Shown here in pieces: positions 36,120 through 61,847 of a DNA stretch of 64,000 nucleotides. The stretch lies in assembly GCA_002989075.1 (NCBI GenBank), contig PSQN01000016.1, forward strand, positions 1,903,346 to 1,967,345, in the 5' to 3' direction. This stretch comes from Arthonia radiata. Taxonomy: Eukaryota > Ascomycota > Arthoniomycetes > Arthoniales > Arthoniaceae. Position 1 is the stretch's first letter. Each line of letters starts with the position of its first letter. The notes under the pieces were generated by a model that ran no database searches, was not told the DNA's origin, and worked only from the letters and a program-made list of their open reading frames with translations. The position numbers were made by a program, and so were the translations under genes.

Positions 36120-39100
36120 ATGCTCGACTCATTCTCTGCCCTTGGCGTAGCAAGCAACATCATATCCACTGTGGACTTTGCTAGTAGAGTCATCAAAGGC
36201 ACAATTGAGATCGCAGGCTCGCATGATGGTGCGCTCACTACACATCGAGACTTGGATGTCATAGCCAAAAACATGGAACTTCCTGTCAACCAAGTGCACC
36301 ATGGAAGCGCTAAACTATCTGGACTTCGACAAGAATCAAGCCCTGCGTTAACTGGCATCGTCACGTATACTACATTCGCCCGTGACCAAGATTCACTCCA
36401 AGTTCTTGCGGAGTCTTGCAGAGACCTTGTCAATGAGCTATTAGGTACATTACAAAACGTCAAATCTTCAGATACTTCAAGAAAGTGGAGTAACTTGCGT
36501 CGAGCTTTGCTCTCTGTATGGAAGGAAAAAGAAATTGATGCATACGCCCGTAGGCTTGCGAGCTTCCAAGGTCAGATTGTGACCAGGCTTTCTGTCACCG
36601 TCGTGTGAGTACCTTGTACACATTGATTCTTGCGTCCTTTGTCATAGACGTCGCGCCTCTCAAGACGGCCTATGAAGACCTTGCCGCACCTTCTAATGCC
36701 GTACTCAGGGACCGGCAGTCAGATGTACTACAAGCGCTGGAATCATTGTCAAAGAAGTTAGGCACGCTAGATTGTTCCAGTGCGCTCACGATCCAAGCGC
36801 TGCGTAGCGAACTCTTTGACTGGGCGGATGAGACGTCAAAAGGGCGTCAGAGTATTCACCAAAGCCTGACCAACCTTGACGTGACCTTGCAAAACGTGGC
36901 CGTTTCTGGCAAATCAATGACCAAATACGCTCTGGTACTTGACAGCCTGCGAGACGCGACCATGTTCGAACGCGAAATTGCTATTTCTGAAGCACACGCC
37001 AGGACGTTTGAGTGGGCTCTTTCAGTAGCGCCCACAAATAACGGAAGGAGTAATCACGTCGACTTCTACATGTGGCTCAGACATGGTCTTGGGTTCTTTT
37101 GGATCAATGGAAAGGCTGGTGCCGGCAAGTCTACTCTCATGAAGTTTCTGTTAAGCAACCCGCAGACAAGGCAAGCTCTTCAGCATTGGTCCGATGAGAA
37201 GAAACTCCTACTTGCAAAGCATTTCTTCTGGCGCGCTGGGACTGACATACAGCGATCTCAACGAGGATTGTTACAGTCACTATTGCTCCAGATACTGTCC
37301 CAGTGGTGCGAGATCATACCCTTGGTCTGTCCAGCAAGGTGGGAGGCATTGGAAGATGTTCTAGCCAAGCCGAACCAGCCGTGGGCTTTGAAGGATCTTC
37401 TGTGGGCTTTTGATCTCATACAGCAGCAAAGACCAAAGGACATGAGGATCTGCGTCTTCGTGGATGGTCTCGATGAATATGACGGTGATCAGTATGACTT
37501 GGTTGATTTTCTCAAACAAATGTCGTCCTCCACCTTCATCAAGATCTGTGGCTCCAGTCGCCCCTGGAATGCATTTGTCGACGTTTTAGATCATGACAAA
37601 GACCAGCAGCTTGTACTTCAGGAGCTGACGCATAGAGATATAGCAATCTACGTAAAGGCCAAGTTACAACAGGAACATCGATTTTCACAATTGCAAACAA
37701 CGGCTGTTCAGCACGAAGACCTTATTACGGTAAGTCACATTACACGAGAAAGCACTAGCACCTTTCCAGTCCGTAGGTGCAGACTAGACTTCTCTGGATA
37801 TTTTTGAAATTCTCCACTGATAGCCGACCTCCAGGAGGTCGTTTCGCGCGCTCAAGGGGTGTTTCTCTGGGTTTACCTTGTCGTACGCTCACTCAAACGA
37901 GGCATGGCCAATTGCGATACTGTTGAAGAGCTTCGAGCACGTCTGCGGCTCTTACCGACGGACCTCTACGACTACTTCCAGCAAATGCTAGATGCCGTCG
38001 AGGAAGTATATCGTCCACAGACAGCGAAGATACTACAGCTTTGTCTAAGATCCCCAGTGAAATTGACCTCGTTGACGCTTTCATTCTTCGACGAAGACTC
38101 TGTTGACTTTGCAATCGACATGTCAGTCAATCCTGGGACACCACAACAGCGATGGGTCCGCGAAGTCTGGTCAATCAGGCGCTTGAGAGCCCGGTGCGCC
38201 GATCTACTGGAAATTGTACAGACTCCGAACGAGGAACCTCAATTTGGTGTTCACTTCCTTCATCGGACTGTTAGAGATTTTCTGGAAGAGAACGAAGTGC
38301 AGAGTCTGGTGCTGTCCCAACTCGCGCACAGAGTGGATCCACTTGAGATGGTTTGCGCAATGTTCTTAGCTCAGGCCAAGATTTATGACCCTAACAGTCC
38401 GGCATCCTCGCAAGCAGTCTGCAACATATTGGATATCGCATTTCTTCTCGGGAAGAATTGTCGGAGCCAGCTACATCGCATTCTTGACGCATTAGAACTG
38501 ATACTCGTCAAGCGCCGTGCACCTAAGACTTGTGCCAGTATGCGCAGGTTTGCTCCCTTCATGCTCGGAGTGTTCGACTCAATAGAACGCGATGTCATGC
38601 TCAGGCTTGCATTGTGTGTCCGGATTGATTCTTATGTTCGTTACAAAGTTGAACAAGACTCATCGTTCCTTCGAGCCCGTGCTGGCGATCCTTTGCTACG
38701 GACACTTGTGGGCAGAGGTCTCCACGGCCAGGAATTACGAAACAAAGGGGTAATGCTGAACGACATAAACATGCCTCATTTCTTCCTAGACCATGGTGCA
38801 GATCCCAACCATAGTGTCGAGACTCCGCACTATGACACTGTAACCCCAGAGTTGAGGGAGACAGTCTGGACAGAATCCCTCCATCTGGCGTGGAAAGCGA
38901 GAAACAGCGAAGGCCTCTTCGAGATGATGATGCTGTTCTTACAGTACGGAGCTGATCCATATGTGCACTTTGCAAGTCCATTCGATGGGTACGGTGATCT
39001 AGCACCAGTGCAAAATTTCTTGCATTTGGAAGACGAACGTTGCGGCGTCATCGACGTTGCAAGACTTCTGCAAGGTGAGACTGGCGTTGACAAGGTCAGC

Positions 39101-39328
39101 ACGCTGATTAAAAGTTTGGAACGACCGCACATCACTCGCGACTTGCAAATTCATGATTTGGAGCATTCGAGGAAGCAAAGGCCGGCAATTGGACTTGAGC
39201 AGAAATGGACGGATGTCTGGAAGGCCACACGCGCAATCGGTTGCAATTCCTCTGCGATTAACGCACTGCGGTCCACAGCGATTGCCGAACCTGCAGACTT
39301 TGAGTCTCAGTCCGTTAGCGTCGACTGA
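36120..39328 (+). CDS. NACHT-domain NLR-like (STAND) protein
   Basis: Three exons are proposed: 36120 to about 36602, about 36665 to 37729, and 37835-39328 (about 1013 aa). The N-terminus (FSALGVASNIISTVDFASRV) matches the helical effector-side region common in fungal STAND proteins. The NACHT NTPase has a P-loop GKAGAGKST (about 37117) and Walker B ICVFVDGLDEYDG (about 37450). The following region has the fungal NACHT-associated signature FLHRTVRDFLEE (about 38260), and a weak ankyrin-like unit, FFLDHGADPNHS, lies near 38785. Intron 2 (37730-37834) is clean: GTAAGT...CCTCCAG, joining LIT to EVVSRAQGVFLW in frame. Intron 1 is not: the good donor GTGAGT (36605) and acceptor TAG (36647) break the frame, and only GTGTGA (36603) with CAAG (36664) keeps it. 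Such proteins act as nucleotide-driven switches in heterokaryon incompatibility or immunity; the ligand is unknown. The gene may be intact or recently broken at intron 1. Confidence 0.8.
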
Positions 39329-40509: not shown

Positions 40510-43315
40510 ATGACAGAGCCATTCACCTTCGCACATTCGCGGGATCTTGAGCTCGCTGTGAGCGTGCGCATGTAAGCTTGACGAGTCCTCCTCCAGAGGC
40601 AACTAACCTTCAATAAGCAACCACTTAGATGGACACCAGGACCCCATTCCATTATCGACGCTGCTCCGAAGACCGGATTTGCGTCACGTGCCGTCAAACA
40701 CCAATCCGACTTCTGATTTATATGTCACTGCACAGCTGTGGGCTGACAGCAAGTCGTATGGCCCGTCCATGCAAACGCCATACAAGGCATTCAAAACCCG
40801 TCGAGAATGGAATGAGTGGCTAAGCTTGGCCATCAACTACTCTCAGGCACCCGCGTCGTCTCAGATAGCCATTACGATTTGGGACATATGTCCAACCGGC
40901 GGCGAGGGTGCTGTAGGGCACTCGGCGCCGTTTGGAGGCACCACTGTTCCTATCTTTGATGACGAAGGCGTGCTGAGGCAGGGGCGGCAGCGATGCTATG
41001 TCCACAGACGCAAAGCAGCGGATGGCCTGAGCGAATCCACGACCCCTCACATGATAAAGCGCGATCGGAGATCCAGCGAGACCAAACGACCGAAACAGTT
41101 CATTGAAGACGAGGATTTGAAGGAATTAGAGCGGCTTGAGGGACTTCTGAAGAAGCTCGAGAATGGCGAGATCCAAGAAGACCATATGCTGGACAGCAAG
41201 GTGTTCAGATACATCGAGGAGCTTCAGCGTAACCTAAGCAAGAAGATGAACGACCAATCGCGTCATAGGCGTATGGGTGAGAACCAGACGAACGGCGTAA
41301 ATGATGGCTCAGCGAAAAAGACCAACGAGAAGAAGGGAGCGAGCCCGGCCGATGACGATATCAACCCAGGACAGTTCTTTCTATACATTGACTTTCCACG
41401 TTTCGATCATGCAGTAGTCTTCACCGACTTCGAATATCCGCCACCACCCATATCGACGATGCAGCCACAGAACAACGTGGGTGGTGATGTGCAGCTGAAG
41501 CCACCGCCGGAGGTCACCCTAGGACCCGGCATTAACGAGGCTGATCCTGAGGCCGGCCGTCTCATTCGCATCTATGACCCAGAAGTGGGCTTCAAAGAGA
41601 ATCCAGTAGAGAGCAAACATCGTCGGCTCTTCCGTAACCAGCGAAGCGGGCTTGTCGATAGAGACGCCAAACCCAACGCTAAGACCCGAGATGACCTTGC
41701 AAACGTGATATCTGCAGGCCCGACCGAAGAACTGACGCAGGCTGAGAAGGACCTGATCTGGCGCTTCCGACACCATCTGATGCGCAACAAGCGAGCTTTG
41801 ACAAAGTTCGTAAAGTCCACGAACTGGAGCGATGCCAACGAAGCGCGGCAGGCGGTGCAGCTACTTCCAAGGTGGACAGAGATTGACGTCGATGATGCTC
41901 TGGAGCTTCTCGGGCCGACCGTAGTAAACCCTGCAGTGCGCGCTTACGCTGTTGACAGACTTCGCAAAGCAGATGATGATGAGCTTCTGGTCTATCTACT
42001 ACAACTGGTCCAAGCGCTGAAGTTCGAGCATGTGGAAGCCGAAAGCCCGGAGGACACGGCGCAGGATTCTTCGTTGGCGCGCTTCCTCATCTCCCGCGCT
42101 GTTGCGAACCTCAAGCTTGGCAACTTTCTCCACTGGTATTTGATGGTTGAGGTCGACGATAAGAGCGAGGGACAGTCATCAGATAACCGGAAGCTTTTTG
42201 CAAAGGTTGAATACGACTTCATGAGTCAGCTAATGGAGGTGCCAGATGGCTCGGAGCGTCGCCAGCTCCTGCTTAAGCAAGGCGAGCTCATCACTGTGCT
42301 TTCAAAGATCTCGAAAGACATCCGATTCTCGAAGGAAGATCGTTTACGCAAAATCGACCGCCTGAAGAAGCTTCTTAATGACCCAGCGAATGACCTACTA
42401 AAATTTGACCCGCCGCTCCCTTTGCCGCTGGATCCTGGAATCTCTGTTGTGTCATGCATGCCAGATGAAGCTACCGTATTCAAGTCATCACTCTTCCCAC
42501 TGCTCATACCGTTCAAGACAAGTGACAATAAGCGCTACTCGATCATCTTCAAAACAGGCGATGACCTTCGACAAGATCAACTTGTCATTCAGATCATCAT
42601 GCTCATGGATCGCTTACTGCGAAATGAGAACTTGGATCTGAAGTTATCGCCTTACCGCATCCTTGCCACGTCTGCAAGCGCTGGCGCCGTGCAGTTCCTG
42701 CCCTCTATGACGCTAGCAAACATTGTGTCAAAGCACAAAGGCTCGCTGCTGTCATACCTGCGCGAGAACAACCCGGACAAGAAAGCGGAGCTTGGCGTTC
42801 GCAAGGAAGCCATGGACACCTTCGTCAAGAGTTGCGCTGGGTACTGTGTGATCACATACCTTCTCGGCGTGGGCGATCGGCATCTTGACAATCTGCTGCT
42901 CACCCCTACGGGCCACTTCTTTCATGCAGACTTCGGGTACATACTCGGACGGGATCCCAAGCCCTTTGCTCCGCTCATGAAGCTGAGTAAAGAGATGATC
43001 GAGGGGATGGGCGGGCCACGAAGCGACTACTACGCGCAGTTCAAGCAGCACTGCTTCACAGCATATACCACTCTTCGCAAAAGCAGCAGCCTAATCTTGA
43101 ACCTGTTCAGTCTCATGGTGGACGCTAATATACCGGACATCAGGATGGAGCCTGACAAAGCTGTTCAGAAAGTCAAGGAGCGGTTTCACCTTGAGTTGCG
43201 AACGGAAGAGGAAGTCGTCAGAAGTTTCGAAGCTCTTATGGAAGACAGTGTAACCGCCATGGCGCCTGCCGTTATTGATTGGGCACATGGGTTTGTCCAG
43301 AGGTTTCGTGCTTGA
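40510..43315 (+). CDS. VPS34: Phosphatidylinositol 3-kinase VPS34 (class III PI3K catalytic subunit)
   Basis: The model joins 40510-40571 and 40618-43315, 919 aa, typical for fungal Vps34. It phosphorylates phosphatidylinositol to PI3P on endosome, vacuole and autophagosome membranes with the Vps15/Vps30 complex. The start MTEPFTFAHSRDLELAVSVR is the conserved N-terminus. The C2 domain follows (SNTNPTSDLYVTAQLW). A charged insert lies near residues 140-220, then the helical PIK domain (about 390-560; LIWRFRHHLMRNKRALTKF). The kinase domain has GDDLRQDQLVIQII, the catalytic loop GVGDRHLDNLL and the metal-binding DFG in FHADFGYILG. The intron is 46 bp with acceptor AATAAG at 40617; the TAG at 40628 would shift the frame, whereas 40617 restores the conserved INHLDGHQDPIPLSTLL. 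No damage is seen. Confidence 0.95.
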
Positions 43316-43966: not shown

Positions 43967-44755
43967 ACGAGCATGGTCATCGAGAAACAAGAGCACTTGA
44001 AAGCGCTGGTCACAAAAATGTTCATTCTCTGGGGGGTGAAAGCAGCCCGTATCATCAATAAGCCTACAGTCAAGAGCTCACTGGCTTACCAGATTGGTGG
44101 GATATCACCACCATGCTGTTATCTGGACATCTCAAACCTCATGGGACCTTCATACCAAGGCAGGTTTTCGCACTTGACACATGCGCAAATGACCGCACAG
44201 TCACTAGAGTGCCCTACCCGCTCTCCCCGTGCGTCTCCCGCAAACGCTTGTTGGCCTGCTGCAGGCGCTTAGCCCCCTTGAGAAAGGTCTCGCGTTCGCC
44301 GAGACAGTCGTCGCAGAATTGGAAGATGATAGCTCCTCCGTCTATGTATACCCAAGGATGTTTTCTACGCTCGTGGTATGGTATCTTGCGATCTTCACGA
44401 ATAAGTCTCTCTTGCTCGATGCGAACACGTTTGTTGTTTCTATAGCTTAGAGGGCCAGGACTTTGAGATGCACAGATTGAACGGAGAGCAGCAAACCAGC
44501 AGCGGAACTCGTTTAGCGGTTGGTTTTATGCACTGGCCACATATTGCACCAAATGTCTCAGAGGATATCAAGCCAGCTATGCATTATCACTACGCAACGT
44601 TGTCACCTAACTCGGAAGCTGCTTTCTAATACCCTGGTTCTTTTCAGCTCAAGACGGCCGTTACGCATGGCTGAAACATGTTATCAGCTCTGACTACCCT
44701 TCACGCTCGTCTCCCGCCTCAGTCAGCACAGACTTCCGTCTCAAGCACTTTCTGA
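43967..44755. other. Intergenic, 0.8 kb
   Basis: Short ORFs only. A 73-codon frame ending at 44450 (from GTG at 44229) has a hydrophobic stretch (STLVVWYLAIF) but no recognisable family and no ATG; I do not annotate it as a gene. No repeat or RNA gene seen. Confidence 0.4.
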
Positions 44756-45372
44756 TCACTCGTTCATGGCGGTCGCTGCGACCTCATCTTTCTTTGTGAG
44801 TGTCTCTCCAAGCTTTTGAAGCCGCTGGATCTGCTCGATGGTGTTCTCAATGATATCGATCATCCCATCCAGTTCGGACTCTCGAATTTGATCGAGCTGA
44901 GTCTTCATCTCCGCAAGCTCTATCTGCATCATCTTGCAAAGTTCGACGATTAGGAGCGCTGCATCACCAACGAGGTTGGACTGACGAGTTACTCGACCGA
45001 CGCCCTCGTTCATAGCCCAGTCCGTCGTCTGCTCGAATAGTCAGTTTACCGCATAGCCACACATACGCAATGCAGCGCATTGATGGCGTTACTTACGCCT
45101 CGCACCCCTCGTTCGAACTTCTCTATTGTCGTTTCGTTTGCCAACAACTCGTCAAGACAGTACTCCATGTTTTGACGAGTATGAGCGCTGATTAGTTCGA
45201 CTTCTGCATGTATTTGATTCAGAGGGATCAATACGCCGTCTGAAAGGTACATGAAGAGCTCTCCGAAGTTGCTGATTTTGCGGAGCATCTCGATCTCTTT
45301 GTCTTTCGCAGCGGCGTCAGACATGGCTGAGGATGCGGGTGCCATGAGAGCGGTGGTCGGATATTCTTGCAT
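44756..45372 (-). CDS. Small helical protein, tandem family member 1
   Basis: Two exons, 45372-45097 and 45028-44756, 182 aa. The 68-bp intron has GTAAGT...GAGCAG, phase 0. A shorter start is possible at the in-frame ATG of MSDAAAKDKEIEML. The N-terminal half carries the family motif as NFGELFMYLSDGVLIPLNQ, comparable with VFIEISDYLSACL of members 5 and 6. The C-terminal half is amphipathic and coiled-coil-like (QIELAEMKTQLDQIRES, then DIIENTIEQIQRLQKLGE). No signal peptide, membrane segment or known domain. It is the left-most of six same-strand neighbours and the only one with a fully canonical intron. Function unknown; the rapid divergence between neighbours suggests a fast-evolving family. 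Confidence 0.7.
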
Positions 45373-45790
45373 GAGTTATGTATGGGGTGCCGGTCTCTCA
45401 GACTTTGGACAGCTATGCTGAATGCTGCGTTCCGAACAGAGGTCGAATTATTGGTGTTTGTAGAGTGAGTGAAAGAACGATGCGCAAAGCAGAAGCAAAA
45501 AGGTCTTGGTGGGGCTCGAGGAGAGGCGAGGCGTAAGGTACCGATTCAGCAGCAAACATGCACGCTTCAGTATTCATTGAGGTGGAGCAAACGCTCCCCC
45601 TTGGTCTTGCTATGCACGCTACGCGATCTTGAACTGACACAGACGTCAACAGTATCAACCCGATCTCCAGAAACTTTGCACATCAGGATCTCACGACAAG
45701 CGACAATGTCCGCTTCAATATCTTTTCTTATCCTCGACAATGACACCTCGAAAGTAGGCTCCGCAAGCCTTGGGCTACCACTAACATTAT
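45373..45790. other. Spacer between family members 1 and 2
   Basis: 418 bp containing the upstream region of member 1. Overlapping small ORFs on both strands show no family motif. No repeat seen. Confidence 0.4.
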
Positions 45791-46314
45791 TCAAGACGCC
45801 AACGAGACCAAGACGATACCCATCATCATAAGACCCACACTAGTCACGAGCAAAATTTTGAGCGTCGTGGCCGAGACTTCCGCTTCAAGCCTCTGATCCA
45901 ACATCTCTTCCGCAAAATCATGGAGCTTCTTCACTCGCTGCAACGTATCTTCAACAAGCTTGTCTGGTCGACCGTTTTCCATCATCGATAGTTCCTGTTC
46001 CTTCTTCATGTGCAGTTCTCGGGCGTCAGCGCGTAGCTCACTTTCCATGACCTCGGTCAGCTCCATTTGTTTTCGGCGGTCATGGCGTGGTCGATCGTGT
46101 GCCACGAGATTCCATTGCTGCGTTCGGCAACCAGGTATCTCCGACTAGTAGCGACGTGCCTCCGGACTTCCCGATCATCCGATACGGCCTGCTTTGCGGG
46201 AAGGCTGAGGCACGCCGAGAGATATGTGATGATTTCGTCGAAGTCGTTGACTTTGGACAGCAAGTCGCGCTCTTTGTCGCGCGCAGTCATTACCGTGTTG
46301 GACGGATGGATCAT
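45791..46314 (-). CDS. Small helical protein with C-terminal membrane segment, tandem family member 2
   Basis: The N-terminal part (from ATG 46314, or 46359) reads ARDKERDLLSKVNDFDEIIT, then YLSACLSLP, clearly parallel to member 1. The C-terminal part is in another frame (MELTEVMESELRADAREL, then KLVEDTLQRVKKLHDFAEEM) and ends in a hydrophobic helix (LKILLVTSVGLMMMGIVLVS), a probable single membrane anchor absent from the other members. A phase-0 intron 46185-46118 (GTATCG...CGCAG, 68 bp) would join the frames, giving about 151 aa. Without it the gene has a one-base frameshift near 46070, where the first frame meets a stop. I prefer the intron model but the donor is weak. Function unknown. 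Confidence 0.55.
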
Positions 46315-46359
46315 GATTGCGACGTTGCTTCGGTATTGACTTGTGATACTCAAGAACAC

Positions 46360-46781
46360 TCAGTTTGCAAGCTTGGTCAACTGCCGTGGAGATGCGATGA
46401 GAAGAGCAGCACTGCCAGAATGATGCAGGAGTCGGCAGTGACGTAACATCAAACCTGAAACATATTCCAGTAGACGCGTCTGAGGTGGGGCGTGCGTTTG
46501 CGACCCACGATCGCTAAGTGGTGCAATCTTGCAGCAGGCTGAAGTCAGCTATGTCGAGCGAGCTGAAGTGAAACAACGGGATAGAGCGGCGAGATTAGAA
46601 GAGCCGAGAAGGCCAGGCCGCAGAGCCATCATAATTAATGGAGACACGAAGACAGTTTCATTGCAGCAAGATAGTCGTGCAAATTCAGTCCCTCCATCGA
46701 ATGTACCGCGAGCGACTCACGCGCGCGAGTCTAGTAGTACACTGCATCCTCAGTTCCCATAGCTGAGTAGCGCTCTCTCCA
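46360..46781. other. Spacer between family members 2 and 3
   Basis: 422 bp. It contains the 12-mer AGTAGACGCGTC at 46469-46480, upstream of member 2, also found upstream of member 3. A 77-codon + frame at 46529-46762 has no recognisable features. Confidence 0.4.
46469..46480. promoter_or_regulatory. Shared promoter 12-mer AGTAGACGCGTC (copy 1)
   Basis: It lies 110-165 bp upstream of the member 2 start (depending on which ATG is used). It contains the palindrome GACGCGTC and the core ACGCGT, which in yeasts is the MCB box bound by Mbp1-type factors. An identical 12-mer lies at 47414-47425. Binding is inference. Confidence 0.4.
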
Positions 46782-47243
46782 CTAAAACAAAGTCTCCGGA
46801 TACTCATGAGCAGCTTTCATCATCCCTGGCGCGTTGAGCAGCTCCTCAGTTCGCTTCCGCAACTTGTGCGCCCCCATCAGCGCCTGCAGCTTCTCCTGGC
46901 TGAAGCCCTCTTCGCTCTTGAGCTCCTCAATCATGGTCTTGCTCGCTTCGTGAGCCATGTATACGAGCTGAGCGTAATCGCGAGTGTCATTGTCGCCTTC
47001 GTCCATCATCTTACGACACCACTGATCGACCCTCTCGTCATAGTCCAAGACACGCAGCTCATCGTCAAAGTCGCCAGTGTTCATCGCTTGCTGCATGAGC
47101 AAATCCACGTAACTGTCGTTGTCGTCGAGATGGTCGGCTACCTTCACGCGGAGGGTATCGACGCTTTTGAGAGTGATCTCGACGCTGCTGGTGAGGTATT
47201 CGATGATCTCGAGGAAGACTTTGGCTTTGTTTGATTGCGACAT
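46782..47243 (-). CDS. Small helical protein, tandem family member 3
   Basis: Single exon, 153 aa, start MSQSNKAKVFLEIIEYLTSS. It holds the two conserved blocks of the family: an N-terminal VFLEIIEYLTSSVE and a C-terminal TMIEELKSEEGFSQEKLQAL followed by AHKLRKRTEEL. The middle is acidic and poorly conserved (DDNDSYVDLLMQQAMNTGDF). No signal peptide or membrane segment. The C-terminal block aligns by eye with MLDELKDVEGWGEEKKEAMR of member 5 and MLYELKPCREWTEEYKCALR of member 6. The long + strand frame at 46806-47234 is its antisense shadow. Function unknown. Confidence 0.75.
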   Translation of the reverse strand: MSQSNKAKVFLEIIEYLTSSVEITLKSVDTLRVKVADHLDDNDSYVDLLMQQAMNTGDFDDELRVLDYDERVDQWCRKMMDEGDNDTRDYAQLVYMAHEASKTMIEELKSEEGFSQEKLQALMGAHKLRKRTEELLNAPGMMKAAHEYPETLF

Positions 47244-47413
47244 AATGGCCTTTGCTTTGCTTGGATTAGATGCATTAGGTAGGGGGTTTCACTGAACATA
47301 CTGATTTCGTCTGGACAGTACGCTGATACAGGCAGATGAGGTGACTTCCCTCTGAGTAAGGAAGGAGCTTGAGTCGTCTGCAACGGGAAGTGAAGTTTGA
47401 GACGTGACGCGAG

Positions 47414-47425
47414 AGTAGACGCGTC
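47414..47425. promoter_or_regulatory. Shared promoter 12-mer AGTAGACGCGTC (copy 2)
   Basis: About 170 bp upstream of the member 3 start, identical to 46469-46480. It overlaps the start of the tandem repeat at 47424. Confidence 0.4.
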
Positions 47426-47449
47426 AAAATTAGCCATCAAAATTAGCAA
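47424..47449. repeat. 13-bp tandem repeat in member 3 promoter
   Basis: TCAAAATTAGCCA followed at once by TCAAAATTAGCAA; 12 of 13 positions are identical. Confidence 0.7.
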
Positions 47450-47574
47450 TATAAACGCGCGCAGCCCCTGAAGATCACATGCAATCGATTATCGACAATC
47501 AACAAAATGACCCCCAACAAAGGTGATGCTCAACGTCATCACACGCCCCCACCTCCACCTCACCCCTCACCCTC

Positions 47575-47988
47575 TCACTCCACCTGCATCAACCCCTCGA
47601 CCTTCCACTCTGCAACCGACACAAAGTCATCAGCAGCCTCCAGCGCAGCCACGCCTTCTTCACCATCATATTCCGCCTCCAGCTCCTCCAGAGCCATCAC
47701 GATGAAGCGCCCCATCTCCGCTGTCGCCTCCGCGAACTCCATCAGCGACTCGTGATAGTCCATCATGCTTCCAGCGGTGGGCTGCGAGAGCATCAGTGAA
47801 GCTTCTTGGTATTCCCATTCTTCGTTGACGTCGCTCAGGGGGTCGTTATTTAGCTCGATCTCTTCGTTCACCGTGGCGAGAAAACGGGTGTCGCTGACGA
47901 GCGTGTCGCGGAGGTCGCGGAGATGGTTCTCGCTCTCCCTGAGGACGGAGAGAATATTTTTCACGGCTTTCGCGGAGTCGTCGGCCAT
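47575..47988 (-). CDS. Small acidic helical protein, tandem family member 4 (divergent)
   Basis: Single exon, 137 aa, start MADDSAKAVKNILSVLRESE. Strongly acidic. The family resemblance is weaker than for 3, 5 and 6 but the C-terminal block is recognisable: FIVMALEELEAEYDGEEGVA against MVMLDELKDVEGWGEEKKEA of member 5. Position, strand and size fit the array. No signal peptide or membrane segment. Function unknown; membership in the family is moderately supported. Confidence 0.6.
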   Translation of the reverse strand: MADDSAKAVKNILSVLRESENHLRDLRDTLVSDTRFLATVNEEIELNNDPLSDVNEEWEYQEASLMLSQPTAGSMMDYHESLMEFAEATAEMGRFIVMALEELEAEYDGEEGVAALEAADDFVSVAEWKVEGLMQVE

Positions 47989-48372
47989 GCTGGCCCTGCG
48001 TTGGAGTTAGTGATGCGGCGTAATGCTTAGAAAGGCGACGCATACTGACTTCGGGGAGACGTGTCAGTCAGTACTGAATATCCACTGACCTGCTCTTCTC
48101 TTTTAAGACTGGCTTTGAGTATGAAAATTCGATCGCGCGTAGGGAGCTTGAAAGTCTGGGAAGCTTGCAAATTTATGACGTGGGTCATCACCAAGTGCTT
48201 GGTTGCCATCTCAGCAACAAAGACTCGTGACACATTTGTATATATTCAATCATTGCGCATGGCATCACAAGCCTGTCAAATGAGTTCGTCCTGCCATTAG
48301 ATAGACCATTGAACTCGCGATATCTCCGTCAATAGCGATCTGCAGACTGCTCGAGAGACTCCCTTGGAAGGT
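47989..48372. other. Spacer between family members 4 and 5
   Basis: 384 bp; upstream region of member 4 and 3' region of member 5. Small ORFs on both strands have no family motif. No ACGCGT 12-mer found here. Confidence 0.4.
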
Positions 48373-48765
48373 CTAGGCCAATTGCATCGCCTTTTTGTGC
48401 ACCACAATGACCTTTCGCATCGCCTCCTTCTTCTCCTCACCCCAACCTTCCACGTCCTTCAACTCGTCCAGCATAACCATTGTAATCTTCAACACCAGAC
48501 CAGCCAAAACAGCCGTGTTCTCGGTGCATGCTTTCTTGAGGTCTCGGAAGATATCGTCGATTCCGCAGTATTCGCCCCTGATGTGCTTGGTCGAGCCTCG
48601 ATAGTACTTTACATGGTCTTCGAAGTTGACTTCGTGAACGCAATTGAGTTCCATCTCGGAGTGAAGAGACTGCAAGGGTGCATCAAGACAGGCGGAGAGG
48701 TAGTCCGAGATCTCGATGAAGACGTCGGGTTTGGAGCGGGTTTCCGTGGCTGCGGCGACTGCCAT
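48373..48765 (-). CDS. Small helical protein, tandem family member 5
   Basis: Single exon, 130 aa, start MAVAAATETRSKPDVFIEIS. Conserved blocks: VFIEISDYLSACLDAPLQS at the N-terminus and MLDELKDVEGWGEEKKEAMR plus VHKKAMQLA at the C-terminus. Three cysteines lie in the variable middle (NCVHEV, EYCGIDD, KKACTEN) but there is no signal peptide, so it is probably intracellular. It shares seven consecutive residues (VFIEISD) and the YL that follows with member 6, its right neighbour. The + frame over the same interval is a shadow. Function unknown. Confidence 0.75.
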   Translation of the reverse strand: MAVAAATETRSKPDVFIEISDYLSACLDAPLQSLHSEMELNCVHEVNFEDHVKYYRGSTKHIRGEYCGIDDIFRDLKKACTENTAVLAGLVLKITMVMLDELKDVEGWGEEKKEAMRKVIVVHKKAMQLA

Positions 48766-49546
48766 CGCTGGCTGTAACTACTTTAGTAGAATCCAATGTG
48801 GGATCATGCATGCGCCACGTACTTGTCGTAGGTTTCGCTGTTGTCTCTTTTGTTAAAGAGTTGAGGTTGGATAATCGCAATTAGAAACGATAAGCAACGA
48901 CCGGCTGAGACAGGCATTCATCACCGTGGCAACTTCAAGTGATAGTACCTTAACCAATGGCTTGGTACTGACATCAGAAGTGTGGCTACTTATTCGGCGT
49001 AGAACAAAGCAGCTGCAATGAAAAGGCCAGAGCGCGTTGTAAGGAGCTCTCACGGTGAAAAGCGGATCCTACCCCTGAGCATTATTTCCGATGCAGAGAC
49101 TTGGCTTGAAGCGAGAGGTGGATACAACTGGGGTCATCTTGGTGTGCTAAGAATCTGCCTGCTTGCTGAATGGATCGTTCCGCGTCGAACAAAACATCAG
49201 CACAATTGTTTCCTGTGCGCAAAGTTGAGGCTCGGATTGGAGTGAGTTTCTTGCCATTTACCGAGACTAATACGCGCAGAGAGAGCGAGATAGTGCAAGT
49301 AGAAGAACAACATGCCAAGGTTTGAGAATCAAATGAGCGCGTCACTTCATGTAAAGGCCTGACCGGGAAAAGCAATGCCTGTGGTTGGTAATCAAGTTCA
49401 TTAGATTGACATGCCGTTACGTCGGTCGTAGCTGGTCCCTCAAACAGTCCGAGCGCGATCTCCATGCGGGAAGACTAGCATGCTGCATTGGTGTAGGCGT
49501 TCAGCAAGAAGCTCGCATTTACGAGGAGATGTCTGCAAACCAAGGT
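48766..49546. other. Spacer between family members 5 and 6, 0.8 kb
   Basis: The longest gap in the array. Small ORFs in several frames have no motif; a decayed further member cannot be excluded but I could not find the VFIEIxxYL block in it. Confidence 0.4.
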
Positions 49547-49984
49547 TCAAGAGTATGGCCTGTGTGGGTCGGATTCCTGAGGCACGAGCACCAACTGCGT
49601 GTCGGCAAATTTGTTGGCAAGTTTGTGAGCATGAACGGTCTTTCGCAGGGCGCATTTGTACTCCTCCGTCCACTCGCGGCATGGCTTCAGCTCGTACAAC
49701 ATGATTTGCGTGACTTCCGAGACCCACCGGGCAGCCTCTTTGTTGTTCATTCTCTCCTCTTCAGGGCACATATTTTGCTTGATAACGTGCTTGCAATATT
49801 CTTTGAGCCACCAATGCCTCTTAATGATATCTTCGATCTGCATGGTCAGGCGCACACCCTCGCGGTCAGTTTTCAAGGCTTTGAGGTCGGTTGCAGCGTT
49901 GATGGAGTTGAGGCTGGCTGTAAGATAGTCGCTGATCTCGATGAACACACTGGCCTGGCTGCGAGGCGTGGGAGGCGCGGTCAT
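49547..49984 (-). CDS. Small helical protein, tandem family member 6
   Basis: Single exon, 145 aa, start MTAPPTPRSQASVFIEISDY. Conserved blocks VFIEISDYLTASLNSI and MLYELKPCREWTEEYKCALR followed by VHAHKLANKFA. The middle is basic and Trp-containing (KRHWWLKEYCKHVIK). No signal peptide or membrane segment. It is the first gene of the array in transcription direction. A 234-codon + frame across it (49385-50089) is an antisense shadow: it lacks any family resemblance, while the minus frame carries the conserved motifs. Function unknown. Confidence 0.75.
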   Translation of the reverse strand: MTAPPTPRSQASVFIEISDYLTASLNSINAATDLKALKTDREGVRLTMQIEDIIKRHWWLKEYCKHVIKQNMCPEEERMNNKEAARWVSEVTQIMLYELKPCREWTEEYKCALRKTVHAHKLANKFADTQLVLVPQESDPHRPYS

Positions 49985-52737: not shown

Positions 52738-53787
52738 CTAGTACGCTGACTGCAATCGATGCTGATGGTACTCCATGGCTGTCATCTCTGTATACTTTGC
52801 TTTCCCTTCCTCTCGAACGAAGTGCTCAAGTGGCGCAACAGATGCATCTCTGTTCGCCTTGCAGAAGTATGCGATCGAGAATCGTTCTGGAACCACTCCA
52901 TCCTTTCCAACCCTTCCCCGTGGTGGAGTTACGCGGTGCAGGCCCGCCGGAAGTCGATCATTCGTCCACCTCTGCAGCGTCTCACTCACGTTCACTATCA
53001 TCTCCGTTGGCTCAGACGGCACGACTTGCCGAAACTCTCCAGGGCGCTGGCGATCCTCAAACTCTAGTCCACCAACATCGTCTTGAAACAACAAGGTGAT
53101 CACTCCCAAGTCAAAATGTGGCCAAATCCGACTCAAGTCACCCTTCTCGAGTGCTTTGTTTGATAAACATGGATAGTGGTTCAGTCGAAACTCACTGGCG
53201 CCCTTGTCTTTGCCAACGTTACTAAGAACAGTCCCTGGAGCAAGTCCCAGCCCAAGCTCGATTGCCTCCATTAGCAAGTCACTCACTTGCGACATCTGGT
53301 TCATGACCCCGGTCATGCATTCACGGAAGCCCGGAAGCGCATCATATGCCGGCCACTTGTTCGGAAACTCGAAGTCTGTCTCGGGCCCTTGGTCCCAATG
53401 CTCCTGCAAATACTCGATCAGGCGTTTCAAACAAACATGTCTTGATTTTTCACTCACTCTGGCGTCCTTGAGGTTGGAAGCATCGCCGTCTATTCCAGAG
53501 AAAGCCTTGAACAAGGAGGCAGTGCTCTCAGCTCCTGGACAGCTCCATCCGCGTTGTGGAGTCGGACCCGACTCGTTCTTTACCATATCCTTCTGCTCTG
53601 GGCTCATGGAGAAGAACTTGTGGGCAAAGTCAAATGCATCTTGTACTTGCTTCTCTCCCATGCCATGACCGACGATCCTCGCGAATCCCGACATAGTCAG
53701 ACTCTCGATTATAGCTCGTGCGAACTGTGCTCGTTGATTCTCATCGCCATCCAAGAAGTCACCGAGGTCTAGCTGAGGAGTATGCAT
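52738..53787 (-). CDS. Isopenicillin N synthase-like 2-oxoglutarate/Fe(II) dioxygenase
   Basis: Single exon, 349 aa, full length for the family. The N-terminal non-haem dioxygenase domain has FARAIIESLTMSGFARIVGH and the GWSCPGAES segment. The C-terminal jelly-roll core holds the iron ligands His and Asp in WPHFDLGVITLLFQDDVGGL, the distal His in RLPAGLHRVTPP and the 2-oxoglutarate-binding Arg-x-Ser in ERFSIAYF. No transit peptide. This group hydroxylates or oxidatively cyclises small molecules. It is divergently arranged with the NmrA-like gene across a 753-bp promoter region, and lies downstream-to-upstream on the same strand as the PhyH-like gene. Substrate unknown. Frames on the + strand over this gene are shadows. 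Confidence 0.9.
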   Translation of the reverse strand: MHTPQLDLGDFLDGDENQRAQFARAIIESLTMSGFARIVGHGMGEKQVQDAFDFAHKFFSMSPEQKDMVKNESGPTPQRGWSCPGAESTASLFKAFSGIDGDASNLKDARVSEKSRHVCLKRLIEYLQEHWDQGPETDFEFPNKWPAYDALPGFRECMTGVMNQMSQVSDLLMEAIELGLGLAPGTVLSNVGKDKGASEFRLNHYPCLSNKALEKGDLSRIWPHFDLGVITLLFQDDVGGLEFEDRQRPGEFRQVVPSEPTEMIVNVSETLQRWTNDRLPAGLHRVTPPRGRVGKDGVVPERFSIAYFCKANRDASVAPLEHFVREEGKAKYTEMTAMEYHQHRLQSAY

Positions 53788-54540
53788 CTTAGCCGCCGCA
53801 GATACGATAGGGGCTCTATGGAAGCTTGACTGAAGACAGGACTTCCAATCGATTTCAGGGTCATTTCGTGAGTCACTTGTACCTATCTAACCTGTGATGG
53901 TCTCGGTCATACTTGCTCTACTACAGCTAATCACTTTCGACTTCTCGTGAAGCTTGGCCGATCCAGACTGCAGGCATTGCCCACGAACACAAGCTGATGT
54001 TTCGGGGGAGCGGATGTCAGAACCCCGTCGCAGCTATCCGTTGCTCCAAATCAACAGAGAGCTGATCGCATCTCCACATACATATTGACATCGGGCATTG
54101 GTATGCAACTCTAGCGAGATGATGATGGTGTTGTCTCCTTGAGTTACGGGTGACCACATATAGACTCGCCTACGCAGCCTTGTCACTACATGGTTCTGCA
54201 TGGCGGCGACCCGAGTTGACACTGTCACAGTAAACCGGTCGTTAGCATTGTACCTCGCACATGTGGAGCTGTTCAGATCGTCCGCGGAAATGCAGTTTGT
54301 TGTGGTGGCTGCTGGATCCCAACGCATAGCTGCAGGACTACATGACTCACTTTGCTACGCAAGCCGACCACATGCAGTTTCCTCATTTGCATCTTGGCCA
54401 TCACACGACCGGTGCGATATCGCACACCTTGACTCGAGGATTGTTGCAACGTGGCTCGACGCGACGAGACGACTGTTGCGATATCGCATAGCTCAATAAT
54501 CATCTGGGCCGCGACCTTTCACCACTGAGTCTCACAGGAC
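53788..54540. promoter_or_regulatory. Divergent promoter region with two identical palindromes
   Basis: 753 bp between two divergently transcribed genes. Two copies of the 12-bp palindrome TGCGATATCGCA lie at 54413-54424 and 54477-54488 (the first extends to 14 bp), with a GTTGCAAC palindrome between them (54443-54450). They are 53-128 bp before the ATG of the NmrA-like gene. Symmetric repeated sites suggest a dimeric regulator; which one is unknown. The rest shows nothing recognisable. Confidence 0.5.
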
Positions 54541-55687
54541 ATGAAACAATTTGCGGCTTCAGAGAGACGGACTGTCGCTGTGGCAGCGGTTGGCGATCTT
54601 GGCAGGTACATTATCGAAGCGCTTCACGCTTCCCCAGACTTCAACGTCATCGCTATATCACGTCAAGTGAGCTTGGATTCCCCTGACTATAAACAACGAA
54701 CATCTTGATAATGAAATACCGCGCCAAAGGCAAGCGTCGGAAAGCTTCAAAATCAATTGGCAGACCTGGGCACGACCGTATCCTCAGTCACAGCATACAC
54801 CGACATCGACGAACTCGTGTCCGTCCTCAACGCGACTAAAGCGACTGCGCTCATCTCAACGCTCAATTTCGACAACGATCAATACTATGACATCCACCTG
54901 GCCTTTCTACGCGCTTGTCATTCGTCCCAGCATACCACCCGCTTCATCCCGAGCGAATGGGGAGGCAACATCGAACAATTCCCGCACTTGCCGCCTTTCT
55001 ATGCGCTCACGCGCCAGCCGTTCCGCGAGCTCTTGAGACGAGAAGAACCGGTGCATAAGAGGATGCAAGGGAGTTCCGCAGGCGCAACTAAAATGGTTGA
55101 GTGGACGTTATTCGGCTGCGGCTGGTTGATGGACTACTTCTTACCTGGCGAGGCGACGTATGTACGGCCTGCTCGGGAGGAGTGCCCGGTGGATCTACAT
55201 TCGTTTAGTGCTGTGATTCCTGGCACTGGTGATGAAGCACAGTCGTGGACGCTGGCAAGCGACGTTGCCCGTGCGATAGTCGAGATGCTGCGTGCTCCCT
55301 GGGGAACGTGGGAAGAAACAACGTATGTTGCGGGTGAGTGGAGCACGTTTAATGCTGCGATCGATGTGCTGGAGGCTTTCTACGGTAAGGCCCTCCGCAA
55401 GAATACGGGGCAGAGTTGTAAAGAATGTGACCACATGTGCTGATGAAGATCCAGGGCGCAAGATGGGAGTAGAGTACAAAGAGGTGACTGTTGGCCCTGA
55501 ACAGTCGCAGATAGATGATGAAGCTGCATTCAATGGTCATCTGGATGAGTGGATAGTGGTCGGCGGAACGGCTGTGCCTCGAGAAAAGGGGCTGCGGCAA
55601 CGAGAAAAGTATTTCAAAGCAGTCAAGTTCCTGAGCTTGCAAGAAGCTTTGAGTCTTGCGCAAAGGAAAGGGTTGAATACGGTATAG
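54541..55687 (+). CDS. NmrA-like / isoflavone reductase-like Rossmann protein
   Basis: Three exons: 54541-54666, 54730-55384, 55449-55687; 339 aa. Introns GTGAGC...CAAAG (63 bp) and GTAAGG...GAAG (64 bp) keep the frame. The N-terminal dinucleotide-binding loop is VAAVGDLGRYIIEAL followed by FNVIAISRQ. Typical later segments are VSVLNATKATALISTLNF, TTRFIPSEWGGN (the FIPSEWG block of NmrA/isoflavone reductase-like proteins) and TLASDVARAIVEML. The family includes NAD(P)-sensing regulators and NAD(P)H-dependent reductases; the full-length fold and neighbours favour a reductase or binding protein of a metabolite pathway. Convergent with the NDP-sugar dehydratase (102-bp gap). Confidence 0.87.
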
Positions 55688-55788
55688 AGGCTCTGAGGGA
55701 GTTCAGCGCTGTATCTATCGCGACATTAAAGCTGCTTTCTGCTTGAAAGACTTTGTTGTGCCGAGAACGGTCATACTCACCTCATCAC

Positions 55789-57231
55789 TCAAGCAGCAGA
55801 CTGAGCTGTATGCCTGGGTAGATCTTCATCAGGCGCTGTGTGAGCGCAATCATCCACCTTGGCTTCCTGGGCTTCGCCCTCCCCATTGATCTCATGATCG
55901 AGGCCAGTGAGGGCGCTGTCGACACCGCCCCACCACAACGTCCCGAACTTACGATACCAGTCCACTGTCTCCGTCATACCGTTCTCAAACTCGACCTTTG
56001 GCTCCCAGCCAAGCCCTCGTAGCTTGTCACCGTTCGTCACATAGACAAGGTCGTTTTGCGGCCTGCAGATATCATGGATTCAGCCACTCGTTGCTTAGCA
56101 AGATCCTCATGGAGAGACTTCCCTTACCGATCATTGACATACTTGATCTTGTTTTTCATTTCCTCTTCTGGCATGTCGAGCCGCTTCAGTAGCGCCTTGC
56201 ACACTTCGAGATTCGAAATTTGGCTCTTGGATGTGATGTTGTAAGTCTCTCCATTTTCGCCTTTGTGAAGTATCGTATCCACCGCATCTGCTACATCTGA
56301 TGCATAGAGGTAGCAACGCGCATTGGAGCCGTCTCCCTGCAGTGGGAGTGGCTTATTCTGGGCCAGCAGGAGAATGAAGCGAGGGATGATCTCTGTTGCC
56401 AGACAAAGCCACATGAGCAACCTCCGAGTAAGAATGGAAAAGCAACTCACTCTCAGGATACTGGCACGGCCCGTAGACATTGTTGCTTCGCACCACGATT
56501 AACGGCAGATCGAAACTGTGCGCATACGACCGCAGTATCATCTCCGCCGCAGCCTTCGATGCCGCATAAGGATTCTTCGGTCTCAACGGGCTGTTCTCGG
56601 TGCACTCGCGAGCTCCTTGCCCTTGCTCACCTTCGAGATCGCCATACACCTCATCGGTTGAGAAATGCACAAACCGCTTGATACCGTGGGTGCGCGCGAC
56701 ATCTGCGACAATCTGCGTGCCCACAACATTGTTGATTGTGAAGCCCAACGGATCGTCAAAGCTCTCCGCGACTTGCGAGTGCGCGGCAAAATTGATGACT
56801 GTGTCGATGGAGAAGCGCTTCACGCAATTTTCGACGTCCTCGCGCCGTCGAATGTCGCCGAAAACGAAATGGAAGTTCGGCCGGCTCTGGAGACAGCGGA
56901 TGTTCTTGATGCTGCCGGCATACTCTAGGTTGTCGATTACGATGACCCTGTAGTCTCGCGCATAGGTCAAAACCAGATGCCTTGTGACCCATGATGCTCT
57001 TTCCGGGTGTCAGCGAAGATCGTGAAGACAGCAAGCTAGCATACATGAAGCCAGCGCCTGGTACGTGATTAGCAGACTGCTGTAAGTACGTCCTTGAGGC
57101 CGCTTACCCCCAGTCACGAGGATGTTGCGTGTCTGCTTTCGAGGCGGGAATGACCTTGTCCCTTTCAGGCGGAGAGTCTCGTCGTACAGGGAATCTGCCC
57201 CATTGGCAAGATGCGTGTGCGATTCGGCCAT
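55789..57231 (-). CDS. NDP-glucose 4,6-dehydratase (extended short-chain dehydrogenase)
   Basis: Five exons: 57231-57108, 57057-57045, 56998-56451, 56392-56128, 56062-55789; 407 aa. Exon 2 is only 13 nt but is needed to complete the NAD loop, giving ILVTGGAGFIASWVTRHL across three exons. Further motifs: VIVIDNLEYAGS, VINFAAHSQVAESFD, the dehydratase signature FSTDEVYGD, the YxxxK in NPYAASKAAAEMI, and NNVYGPCQYPEKIIPRF across intron 3. All introns are GT-AG, 46-65 bp. The enzyme makes the NDP-4-keto-6-deoxy sugar on the way to rhamnose-type sugars; in fungi the UDP form is used, which is family knowledge, not read here. The C-terminal tail after DWYRKF is long and acidic. A glycosyltransferase lies 5 kb away. 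Confidence 0.9.
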
Positions 57232-58108
57232 GCTTGCAGCGAGTGGAAGGCGCACGTCCTATGGTCGGTCGAAGTGTACACTCTTGATCGCCGCCTTTCA
57301 TTGTCAGCAAGCGAGCAATGACCACAGGATGATAGACATCGTCAATGCTCGTCGTCGTATCACAAGCCCATCCTGCAGCGACAGTCATGGCTCCTAGAAA
57401 TCAGTGAACACGGCCCACCTGCAATACAAGAGATCCAAGCCTTTCTGCACGCGATGCCGTTGGTGTATGTGACCTTGAAACCAAGCAATATACACACTCG
57501 CTTGCAAGGCTGAGCCTGTACGATCGACACGACAACTAGCGCCGCACGCTTGTAGTGGCTTTCCTAGGCCATCCGTCGGAAAGGGCCATTGAGGAGGGTG
57601 GCCGATGCCGGACAGCTGCTCAACACTTCAGAGGATCATGGGCACAGCGTGCATTGGTGATGCACAAGAGCAAGCCTGTATGCAAAGAGCAAACCTCTGA
57701 GGTGTTTTTGCAACGTCTCGTGAAGAGTCTTTGCCAAGAGCTTGTGTTCCAGCGGGAGATCAAGAAAGATCAAAATGCTCCAAATAATTGCCGAAGATGG
57801 ATAGCTCAACAGGATCTTGTCCCACCTGAGTGAGCGCAAATCGCAGGGATGTGTCCGGATACAGCATGCTGTGGTAAGGCAACTTACACGCTAGTGTTGA
57901 AGTGTTTGCAGACGGCTAACAACTCCGCATACGTTCCATGTGCAACCTGGTTGAGGTCCAGGTTGGCAGCTGTCAAAGTCAAATAGTATGAATTAGCATC
58001 CTCATACCGGGTACAGCTCTGGTAGTCTCCCAATCATCTCGTCAAACATTCTCGCACGGCCCGCACCCCGCATTCGGTGCGGCCCGTATAGCTCCTGCAG
58101 AAGCACTC
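57232..58108. other. Intergenic, 0.9 kb, divergent promoter region
   Basis: Between the dehydratase (minus) and the ABM-like gene (+). It has a GC-rich hairpin-like repeat (CCGCACC...GGTGCGG, about 58065-58086) just before the latter. A 92-codon + frame at 57555-57833 has no family resemblance; no gene is called. Confidence 0.4.
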
Positions 58109-58577
58109 ATGATGGATAGCGCCTACCGCATCACGGTCACGCTCAACCCGGTACCAGGTAAAGTTGACGAGGTGACACAACCGAGTCATGTCGGTTCGCA
58201 ATCCACTTGACTGATCTGATCCACACCAGTTACGTCAGCTCCTGCGCGAGTCGATCACCAAGATACGCATACACGACGAACAGTGCCTCCGGTACGAAGT
58301 ACTAGAAGTTAGCGTGTCCGATGCAGGCGACCCGCACCATTTTCAGATCATCGAAGAGTGAGTTCCACATACTTCAACGTCTTTAACGTCTGCTAGATCC
58401 ACCCTGCTGACTGAGTCCGTTCGTGGAGATAGATGGACAAGTCGGTCCGCATTTGAGGAGCATATTGCACGTGAGCGGCATGTAGCTATCTGTGAGGACA
58501 TCGAACAGCGAGAGTTATTGGCCAAGCCCTATTCGCAGGCTGATGTCAAGTCAATCGGAGGGGTTCGATGGTGTTAA
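58109..58577 (+). CDS. Antibiotic biosynthesis monooxygenase (ABM)-fold small protein
   Basis: Three short exons, 58109-58171, 58230-58357 and 58433-58577, give 111 aa, the usual size of a single ABM domain. Splicing joins YRITVTLNPVPGKVDE to LRQLLRESITKIR, and FQIIEE to WTSRSAFEEHIARERHVAI. This matches the family pattern of a first strand with PGK, a central acidic/aromatic strand (CLRYEVLEV), IIExW and a conserved His (EEHI). Introns are 58 and 75 bp, phases 0 and 2; the first has a non-consensus GTGACA donor. The family includes cofactor-free oxygenases of polyketide quinones and detoxifying quinol monooxygenases. It lies 117 bp before the MFS transporter on the same strand, suggesting a functional link. 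The start could be the second ATG (58112). Confidence 0.72.
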
Positions 58578-58693
58578 GCTTCGTAATCTCCTTTCGTGGT
58601 GGCACATCTGATACTCTGTTGGATTTGCCTGTCGCTCCTTGCAAAACCTTCCGCCATTGGAATATTATAGGTGTAAAGGCAAACCATAGCACA

Positions 58694-60297
58694 ATGAGAT
58701 TTCCAGATACGAAGCGCCTGAGAGCTTCCAAGCTGTTTACCAAACTTGTTGTGTGCTTTGCGTCCTTTCTGGATGCCTTGTTCTATGGGCTAGTCGTTCC
58801 AGTCCTTCCTTTCGCTTTGTCCGATCATATCCATGTACCAGATGACCAGCTTCAGCAATGGAACTCCATCCTTCTTGGAGCTTTCAGTCTTGCTATTGCA
58901 TTCGCCTCGGGTGAGTACACCAATAGATTAAAAGGCAGAATGACCGGCAACTGACGCGATTGCTTACCACCCCTCCAGTGCCTGTCGGATGGATTGGCGA
59001 CCATGCCCCGAATCGAAAAATGCCGTTCGTGGGCGGCTCCATCATCTTAGCTGGCTCAACATTAGTGTTCATGTGCACGAATTCGCTCCTCCTTCTTGCA
59101 CTCGCTCGAATATTGCAAGGTGTAGCTGCAGCAGTCGCTGCCACTGTCGGCGGGGCCATTCTTTTAGACAAATGCGGTGAGAAAGATATCGGAGAGGCAT
59201 CAGGTTGGAGGTTCACTGCTCTCATCCTCGGCTTCGCTTTGGGTCCAATCTTCGGTGGCATGCTCTACGACTCTGGTGGATGGTATGCGGTATTCACGCC
59301 AGCTTTGTGTCTTGTCCTATTCGAGATCATTCTCCGAGCTTCACTCATCGAAGGGAAAGAGCCTCTCCGAGATATTGCGTCCCCTTTACTCCAAGACAGA
59401 AACAATGGACCAAAATATTATGGCACAAGGGATAATATGAACGATGCGAGCTCTGGCGAGACTGGCGGCGATCAGGCTGGCGCACCACAGCCAGAGTCCA
59501 AAAGCGCTGGTGATCCTCCGAAAAGTTGGGCTTTGGGCATCTTGGCCACTTGTCCACGATTTGTTGTTATCTGTCTGGCAAACAGTACTGCGAACAGCCT
59601 CTCTGGAGCTTTGGAGAGTGTGGTAGGTGGTAAGTCCGTCCACCAAGATCTAACACGCTGACAAATTACTGTGACTAGCTTCCACTGTATGGACATGAGG
59701 TGTTTGGAATGAGCGCTCAAGCAGCAGGCTTGATATTTCTTCCTTTCTGCATTCCAATAGTGTTCTCACCGCTCGCGGGGACATACGTAGATAAGGTTGG
59801 CGCCAGAGGGCCATGCAGTATATCTTTCGCCCTGGGTGGGATCGCATTCTTACTCATGGCGCTCGTCCGACATGATACGGCTGCAGACTTGGCTCTGCTG
59901 ATCGTGGGTCTTTTGATGTTTGGCGTCATCTTTACGTTTGCTTCGGTATCTGCCTCCTCGGAAGTCGCAGCCATCGTTATTGAGCTTGAGGCAGCTCATC
60001 CTAGAGCGTTTGGGAAAGCTGGGGCATACTCAATAGCATTGGGTAAGCGCGGTGATCTTAAAAAGTGCTTCAATCGCCCCGCTGACTTCGAGAATAGGAG
60101 TTGGCAACACTACCGTAGCTTGCGGGATCATGGTAGGGACCTTGTACGGAGGTTTCTTACGTGGAGGCCTAGGCTGGCCGGCAATGAACGGTTTCATGGC
60201 ATTCCTGTGCATAGTAAATGCGGTCGCCATCAGTCTCATCACTGGGAGGCCGATGAAGAGCAGGGAGGTTCCGAACCCGGCTGCTGTTCTAGCTTAA
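58694..60297 (+). CDS. MFS transporter (drug:H+ antiporter / VMAT-like)
   Basis: Four exons: 58694-58910, 58979-59622, 59679-60042, 60098-60297; 474 aa, about 12 membrane segments. First helix LVVCFASFLDALFYGLVVPV; motif A GWIGDHAPNRKMPFVGG after helix 2; motif-B-like ALARILQGVAAAVAA; motif-C-like ALILGFALGPIFGGML. A long hydrophilic central loop (about residues 220-265) is rich in Ser, Gly and Asp. The second half begins LPLYGHEVFGMSAQAAGLIF. Introns are 55-68 bp. The last acceptor is AATAG at 60097, chosen because it gives YSIALGVGNTTVACGIMVG in frame. Likely exports a small molecule from the neighbouring pathway or confers resistance; substrate unknown. Convergent with the Mpv17-like gene. 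Confidence 0.87.
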
Positions 60298-60401
60298 GTC
60301 TGTATACTCAGCACTACGAAGCCCACAATGAAAGAAGCATGAACGTATCCAGACCATATCGTTTGCATGATAGCGCAATGTCAATAGCCCGCAGTTTGTG
60401 C

Positions 60402-61178: not shown

Positions 61179-61847
61179 ACCGAGTGACAGTGGTGGGTGC
61201 TTCTTCGATCAGCATAATTGAAGCGACATGGGCCCTTCCATATCTTAAAACAGATGCATTGTTAATTGGTGTAGCGTGACAAGGAGCGCATGAAAGTCAA
61301 TTGTGTCTTGTGCCGGTCCTGGTGACGAGAACGGAGGCAGAAAAGGAAGGGGTCACGTCAGGCCGCACCTTCCAGCCATTGAAACAGCCTGATCAGCCGT
61401 ACCCCATTCTGAGACCCTGCGCGGAAAGCTGACTGCCGATCCCCGGGCATGGGGGTTACTCGTTACACTCACCTGCATCTTCAACCTATCATGCAGGGTG
61501 AGCTCAAACACAGCGCTCATCGCAGGATGTCAAGGACTTTCGAAATATACGTCTCAGTCTCTTTCGACGAGAATGAGCTTGAGACGAAATATCGACGGGC
61601 TTTATTGGAGACTTCTACCGGGCTTTAAGGACAGCGAAGCTCTCGATGGATACGTGTAGAGGTGTTGATTGGATCGATAAACAAAGCCTCAGCCGATTTA
61701 GGGAATTTCATTTGTGCCAAGTCTTACCTGAAGTATCAGGCGCAAGATTCTTGGCAAAATTCCTCCGCCTCTGCCAAACAGCACCTCTGCCAAACAGTCG
61801 CCATCATCCGCCGCGAACGCAATCCTATGAAGATGCTATCTAGCTGT
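61179..61847. other. Intergenic, 0.67 kb, between Mpv17-like and GT2 genes
   Basis: Upstream region of the Mpv17-like gene and 3' region of the glycosyltransferase. Only short ORFs. No repeat or RNA gene seen. Confidence 0.5.

Follow-up and report, generated by a model that had tools for sequence, protein, structure and literature searches.

A window of 64,000 nucleotides from the genome of Arthonia radiata, probably a lichen-forming fungus, carries at 44756-49984 an array of small minus-strand genes. The window corresponds to C2:1903346-1967345 in a genome of 33,499,693 bases and 16 contigs, and the gene coordinates given here are window positions (Table 1). The initial annotation described the array as six consecutive genes of one unrecognised, fast-diverging family. 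Six open reading frames (ORFs) or gene models are indeed found at these places, but one of them, member 2, consists of two frames. The array is real and smaller than six genes, the supported family comprising members 1, 2, 3, 5 and 6.

Gene models of the array

The intact frames of members 1, 3, 5 and 6 span 130-182 amino acids. ORFs of at least 129 amino acids beginning with ATG exceed the number seen in simulations, with four on the minus strand against a maximum of three in 300 simulations, and five on both strands taken together, a count reached by one simulation of the 300. The codon score is highest in the sense frame for members 1, 3, 4, 5 and 6; for the ORF called member 4 it amounts to 0.286, against 0.117 in its best antisense frame.

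The two halves of member 2 lie in different frames. Candidate introns of 40-159 nt running from GT or GC to AG were considered as a junction, and none had a canonical donor. The change of frame may be due to decay of the gene, to a weak intron or to an error in assembly. The second half (m2b) ends in a strongly hydrophobic helix (45800-45856, 19-residue hydropathy 2.49), a feature absent from the other members. Although m2b is similar to the later part of member 1, its score on a profile of members 3, 5 and 6 is equalled by 625 of 2000 shuffles, which is not significant and counts against its kinship.

Table 1. Features of the array and the genes beside it, in window positions; z values refer to pairwise comparisons with shuffled sequences
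Feature	Position	Strand	Description
Member 1, exon 1	45097..45372	-	Splice model; 92 codons; N block 45242-45267; m1-m2 z 11.3, m1-m5 z 4.8
Member 1, intron	45029..45096	-	68 nt; GTAAGT donor, CTGAC branch-like site and CAG acceptor, from sequence
Member 1, exon 2 and stop	44756..45028	-	C-block-like stretch 44903-44959
Member 2, first half	46060..46290	-	77 codons; N block; m1-m2 z 11.3, m2-m5 z 6.7; 0/2000 shuffles on m3/m5/m6 profile
Member 2, second half (m2b)	45791..46105	-	Other frame; like second part of member 1, m1-m2b z 5.0
Member 3	46782..47243	-	Single ORF, 153 aa; C block 46839-46961; m3-m5 z 7.9, m3-m6 z 6.4
ORF called member 4	47575..47988	-	Single open frame, 137 aa; gene-like codon usage; membership unsupported
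Member 5	48373..48765	-	Single ORF, 130 aa; C block 48379-48501; m5-m6 z 19.9
Member 6	49547..49984	-	Single ORF, 145 aa; C block 49607-49729; m5-m6 z 19.9
Vps34-type kinase ORF	40679-43315		PI3/PI4 kinase, PI3Ka and PI3K C2 domains
NLR-type gene	36120-39328		Three open frames; SesA-like start (E 8e-4, below Pfam cut-off), NPHP3_N domain, DUF7791

Common descent, conserved blocks and age

Kinship was evaluated in 21 pairwise comparisons by the Smith-Waterman method, with 1000 shuffles for each. Seven of the 21 pairs are outstanding (z 4.8 to 19.9, Table 1), and together they join members 1, 2, 3, 5 and 6. As decoys, 124 real ORFs lying outside the array in the rest of the window were compared in the same way for six of these pairs, and for member 3 with a further copy on contig C10 described below; none of the 124 reached the score of any of the seven pairs tested. 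On the profile of members 3, 5 and 6, the score of member 1 is equalled by 2 of 2000 shuffles and that of member 2 by none. In searches of the genome, member 5 finds member 6 at E 9.9e-7, and member 6 finds member 5 at E 3.1e-7. At the level of sequence comparison, these data demonstrate that five members, and with them the C10 copy, share a common descent; the two blocks are conserved, and there is a coding signature.

For the ORF called member 4, no test gave evidence of kinship. None of its six pairs falls below p 0.05, its score on the profile of members 3, 5 and 6 is equalled by 947 of 2000 shuffles, its hhalign probability is 0.14 on a scale of 100, and the comparison with decoy ORFs gives no similarity either. 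Its membership is consequently unsupported by sequence, and a member that had diverged past detection would look alike. The pairwise kinship assumed for all six genes thus stands for the five members that beat shuffled sequences and fails for member 4.

Both blocks had been attributed to all six genes. The N-terminal block (N block) is present in members 1, 2, 3, 5 and 6, and the C-terminal block (C block) in members 1, 3, 5 and 6, while member 4 is not joined by them. The N block is even visible in DNA, as a 38-nt repeat in members 2, 3, 5 and 6 with 63-74% identity to the reference copy. A basic C-terminal stretch is recovered in three members, 3, 5 and 6, whose most basic 20-mer carries a net charge of +4, but not in member 4 (-4) or member 1 (+1). 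The absence of signal peptides agrees with a maximum 19-residue hydropathy of 1.01 in the N-terminal regions of the array proteins, a judgement made by hydropathy alone and with no dedicated predictor; by the same measure, the N-terminal signal peptide expected of small secreted effectors is lacking. As for the helical nature proposed for all of them, members 5 and 3, the only two modelled, give all-helix models in which the conserved blocks are the best-predicted parts. These low-confidence models would correspond to helix bundles of a common type. Searched with Foldseek against the PDB, they gave best E values of 0.22 and 0.21, and the best match in a viral fold library had E 0.14.

The duplicates are probably old. 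In a pool of 600 aligned codons, the fraction of identical nucleotides is 0.45, 0.59 and 0.375 at codon positions 1, 2 and 3, while permuted codons give 0.25 to 0.35. Where the pooled pairs share the same amino acid, the codon is identical in 84 of 170 columns, compared with 65 expected at saturation. Pair by pair, identical codons number 23 of 42 for members 5 and 6 (15.8 expected), 16 of 30 for members 3 and 5 (11.0 expected) and 15 of 27 for members 3 and 6 (10.6 expected); the remaining three pairs in the pool differ from the saturation expectation by at most 1.5. Since pairs have sequences in common, they do not count as independent. With synonymous sites close to saturation, the divergence is an old one, and how fast it proceeded cannot be read from it. 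The fast divergence originally claimed was therefore not upheld, since near-saturated synonymous sites fit age as well as speed.

Repeat-induced point mutation (RIP) acts on duplicates above an identity threshold. Its indices are strong in bases 1-34000 of the window, an AT-rich block (GC 0.33-0.38) with TpA/ApT of 1.67-1.85, and the array shows no RIP signature, its TpA/ApT being 0.53. Old duplicates that had diverged past the reach of RIP would be consistent with this.

Relatives in the genome and in databases

The genome was searched with members 5, 4, 3, 1 and 6 and the first half of member 2; only candidates passing a first look were scored, and distant copies may have escaped. One further relative was obtained, on contig C10, with E 0.12 from member 3 and E 0.02 in the reverse direction. 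Full comparison of this copy with member 3 yields z 11.5, and when the frames from two 10-kb regions are searched with the family profile, it scores E 2.1e-6. In this copy the N block is kept, as is the beginning of the C block, after which similarity ends, indicating truncation. Beside it lies an AT-rich tandem repeat with a period of 126 bases and about 10 copies (L035 5632-6943, C10). On the far side of this repeat there are open frames that look nucleotidyltransferase-like by eye, the two tried having no Pfam match.

A further candidate, an ORF at C16:559796-560221, was discarded. It carries a similar N block, but it had been found with a pattern that preselects that block. Against 2000 shuffles, its score was reached 2 times with the five-member profile and 27 times with the three-member one; once the N block is removed, five comparisons give 121 to 1767 of 2000 shuffles, which is not significant. 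The N-block pattern itself has 13 matches, five of them in the array, against 12 for a reversed control pattern. Matches on C1 (E 1.59), C4 (E 1.71) and C12 (E 2.22) are at chance level. Close to the array, the stretch 44345-44446 scores E 0.035 on the profile.

The view that the family is unrecognised has held, as no match to a named family, housekeeping or other, was found in Pfam, NCBIfam or the sequences of the PDB. In the Pfam scans no family reached its cut-off for the array proteins. The nearest approach, member 6 to CTP_transf_like (E 7.1e-4; 20.2 bits, where the cut-off is 21), is absent from the other members and is regarded as chance, as are ZorE from NCBIfam (one of five members, E 0.094) and eL22 among the PDB sequences (E 0.62). 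A protein database searched with member 6 returned nothing at E <= 0.001 among 27 candidates scored, and with the five-member alignment nothing at E <= 0.1 among 2138. As a control, the Vps34 ORF of the same window retrieved 2332 proteins at E <= 1e-50 among 7993 candidates scored; the best named of the 120 matches listed, from Coniocarpon cinnabarinum (Arthoniaceae), is 88% identical, and this relative indicates that proteins of close Arthoniaceae are present in the database. No publication describing the family was found, judging from titles and the openings of abstracts. According to these searches, the family is likely restricted to its lineage.

Neighbouring genes and possible roles

A NOD-like receptor (NLR) gene and a Vps34-type kinase ORF precede the array in the window. 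The genome holds 69 exon-level NPHP3_N matches, the NLR of the window being one of them, and 32 NACHT matches. On the other side, 52738-63398 contains a row of metabolic-type genes (2-oxoglutarate-Fe(II) oxygenase, epimerase/dehydratase, major facilitator superfamily transporter and glycosyltransferase), possibly a biosynthetic cluster.

The explanation that is tentatively preferred, with a likelihood somewhat short of even, is that the array belongs to an orphan family confined to its lineage and encoding small, soluble, cytosolic interaction proteins of alpha-helical type, which arose by old tandem duplication and long divergence. Under this explanation, local duplication would have built the array, and one copy would have moved to another contig, that of C10, losing its end, while member 2 is perhaps decaying. 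The two blocks would form the opening helix and the final pair of helices in a helix bundle. The proteins would act by helix packing as small interaction modules, either as subunits of homo- or hetero-oligomers or as adaptors, and the variable middle would set the binding partner. In favour of this explanation are the kinship of the five members, the surplus of long minus-strand ORFs, the sense-frame codon scores, near-saturated synonymous sites with higher identity at codon positions 1 and 2, the absence of significant matches in protein searches whose Vps34 control succeeded, and the all-helix models. Lineage-restricted tandem gene families are a known kind in fungi, and the array resembles them in consisting of small ORFs with no known domains, duplicated locally and with no outside match in the searches. 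It differs from recent bursts of orphan duplicates in the age of its copies, whose synonymous sites approach saturation.

Several observations weigh against this proposal. Lineage restriction depends on a word-based search that requires shared 5-residue words and is blind to distant orthologues, so that orthologues as divergent as the paralogues could escape. The protein-based alignment itself contributes part of the excess identity at the first two codon positions, and the two models are weak, with predicted local distance difference test (pLDDT) values of 67.7 and 66.9. Interaction and oligomer formation are entirely inferred. In addition, neither the first half of member 2 nor the C10 copy scores best in its own sense frame, and for this reason some copies of the family may be dead. 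Taken further, these last data, along with the frame change of member 2 and the truncation of the C10 copy, would make the whole array a decaying remnant of old and mostly non-functional duplicates. This is unlikely, as members 1, 3, 5 and 6 keep open frames, codon usage of coding type and both blocks despite near-saturated synonymous sites.

A different role was suggested by the initial annotation, which placed the array close to a RIP-mutated block and an NLR-like gene. The NLR does lie 5.4 kb away, though beyond Vps34, and the RIP signature stops short of the array. The array could on this view be a set of genes for recognition, self/non-self discrimination or conflict, such as effectors or decoys under the watch of the NLR (36120-39328). 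Tandem copies, a variable middle and the lack of a signal peptide would suit such a set, as would a receptor with a SesA-like start, NPHP3_N and DUF7791 at that distance. However, an NLR would fall within 9.5 kb of a random place with a chance of about 3.5%, if the 69 exon-level matches are taken to represent 62 NLR loci, and Vps34 stands in between; the NLR has an N-terminal part of its own, the SesA-like start, and the divergence, moreover, is old and not demonstrably fast. The C10 copy has no NLR match closer than 366 kb, where the nearest one is found, and the family profile bears no similarity to the NLR start (hhalign probability 0.26 of 100). As PMC3321046 describes them, HET-S-type pairs are immediate neighbours that share a motif. 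The array is like the HET-S/NWD2-type pairs of NLR and effector covered there in placing small cytosolic proteins near a signal-transduction ATPase with numerous domains (STAND)/NLR gene, but it is not the immediate neighbour of the NLR and its profile is unlike the NLR start. Neither a HeLo domain nor the HET-s amyloid motif appeared in Pfam scans up to E 1. A recognition or conflict role, for which the evidence is the neighbourhood alone, is not supported, and it is considered improbable. Still more improbable is its elaboration into a new fungal allorecognition or NLR-guarded family of paralogous helix-bundle proteins, in which the variable middle would provide specificity, the C-terminal hydrophobic helix would anchor member 2 in the membrane and the nearby SesA-NACHT receptor would keep watch.

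The models also recall the BAG domain (AtBAG4, 4hwh) by a similar three-helix arrangement, although at low confidence, and the proteins could be imagined as divergent BAG-like co-chaperones that bind Hsp70. Unrelated bundles tie with this match (Der f 21 at 9.2, AlaRS C-Ala at 9.1), all of them under the noise of about 13 for helical folds, and the Foldseek values against the PDB given above are the best obtained. The array proteins have no sequence match to BAG, and no BAG family appears in the Pfam scans up to E 1. Such a function is considered very improbable.

A role in recognition, if true, would matter much more than the orphan family preferred here. If this orphan family is confirmed in sister species, it would add another unnamed protein family, from a class of lichen fungi that has been little sampled, and it would provide a small case of old tandem duplicates persisting in a genome with RIP.
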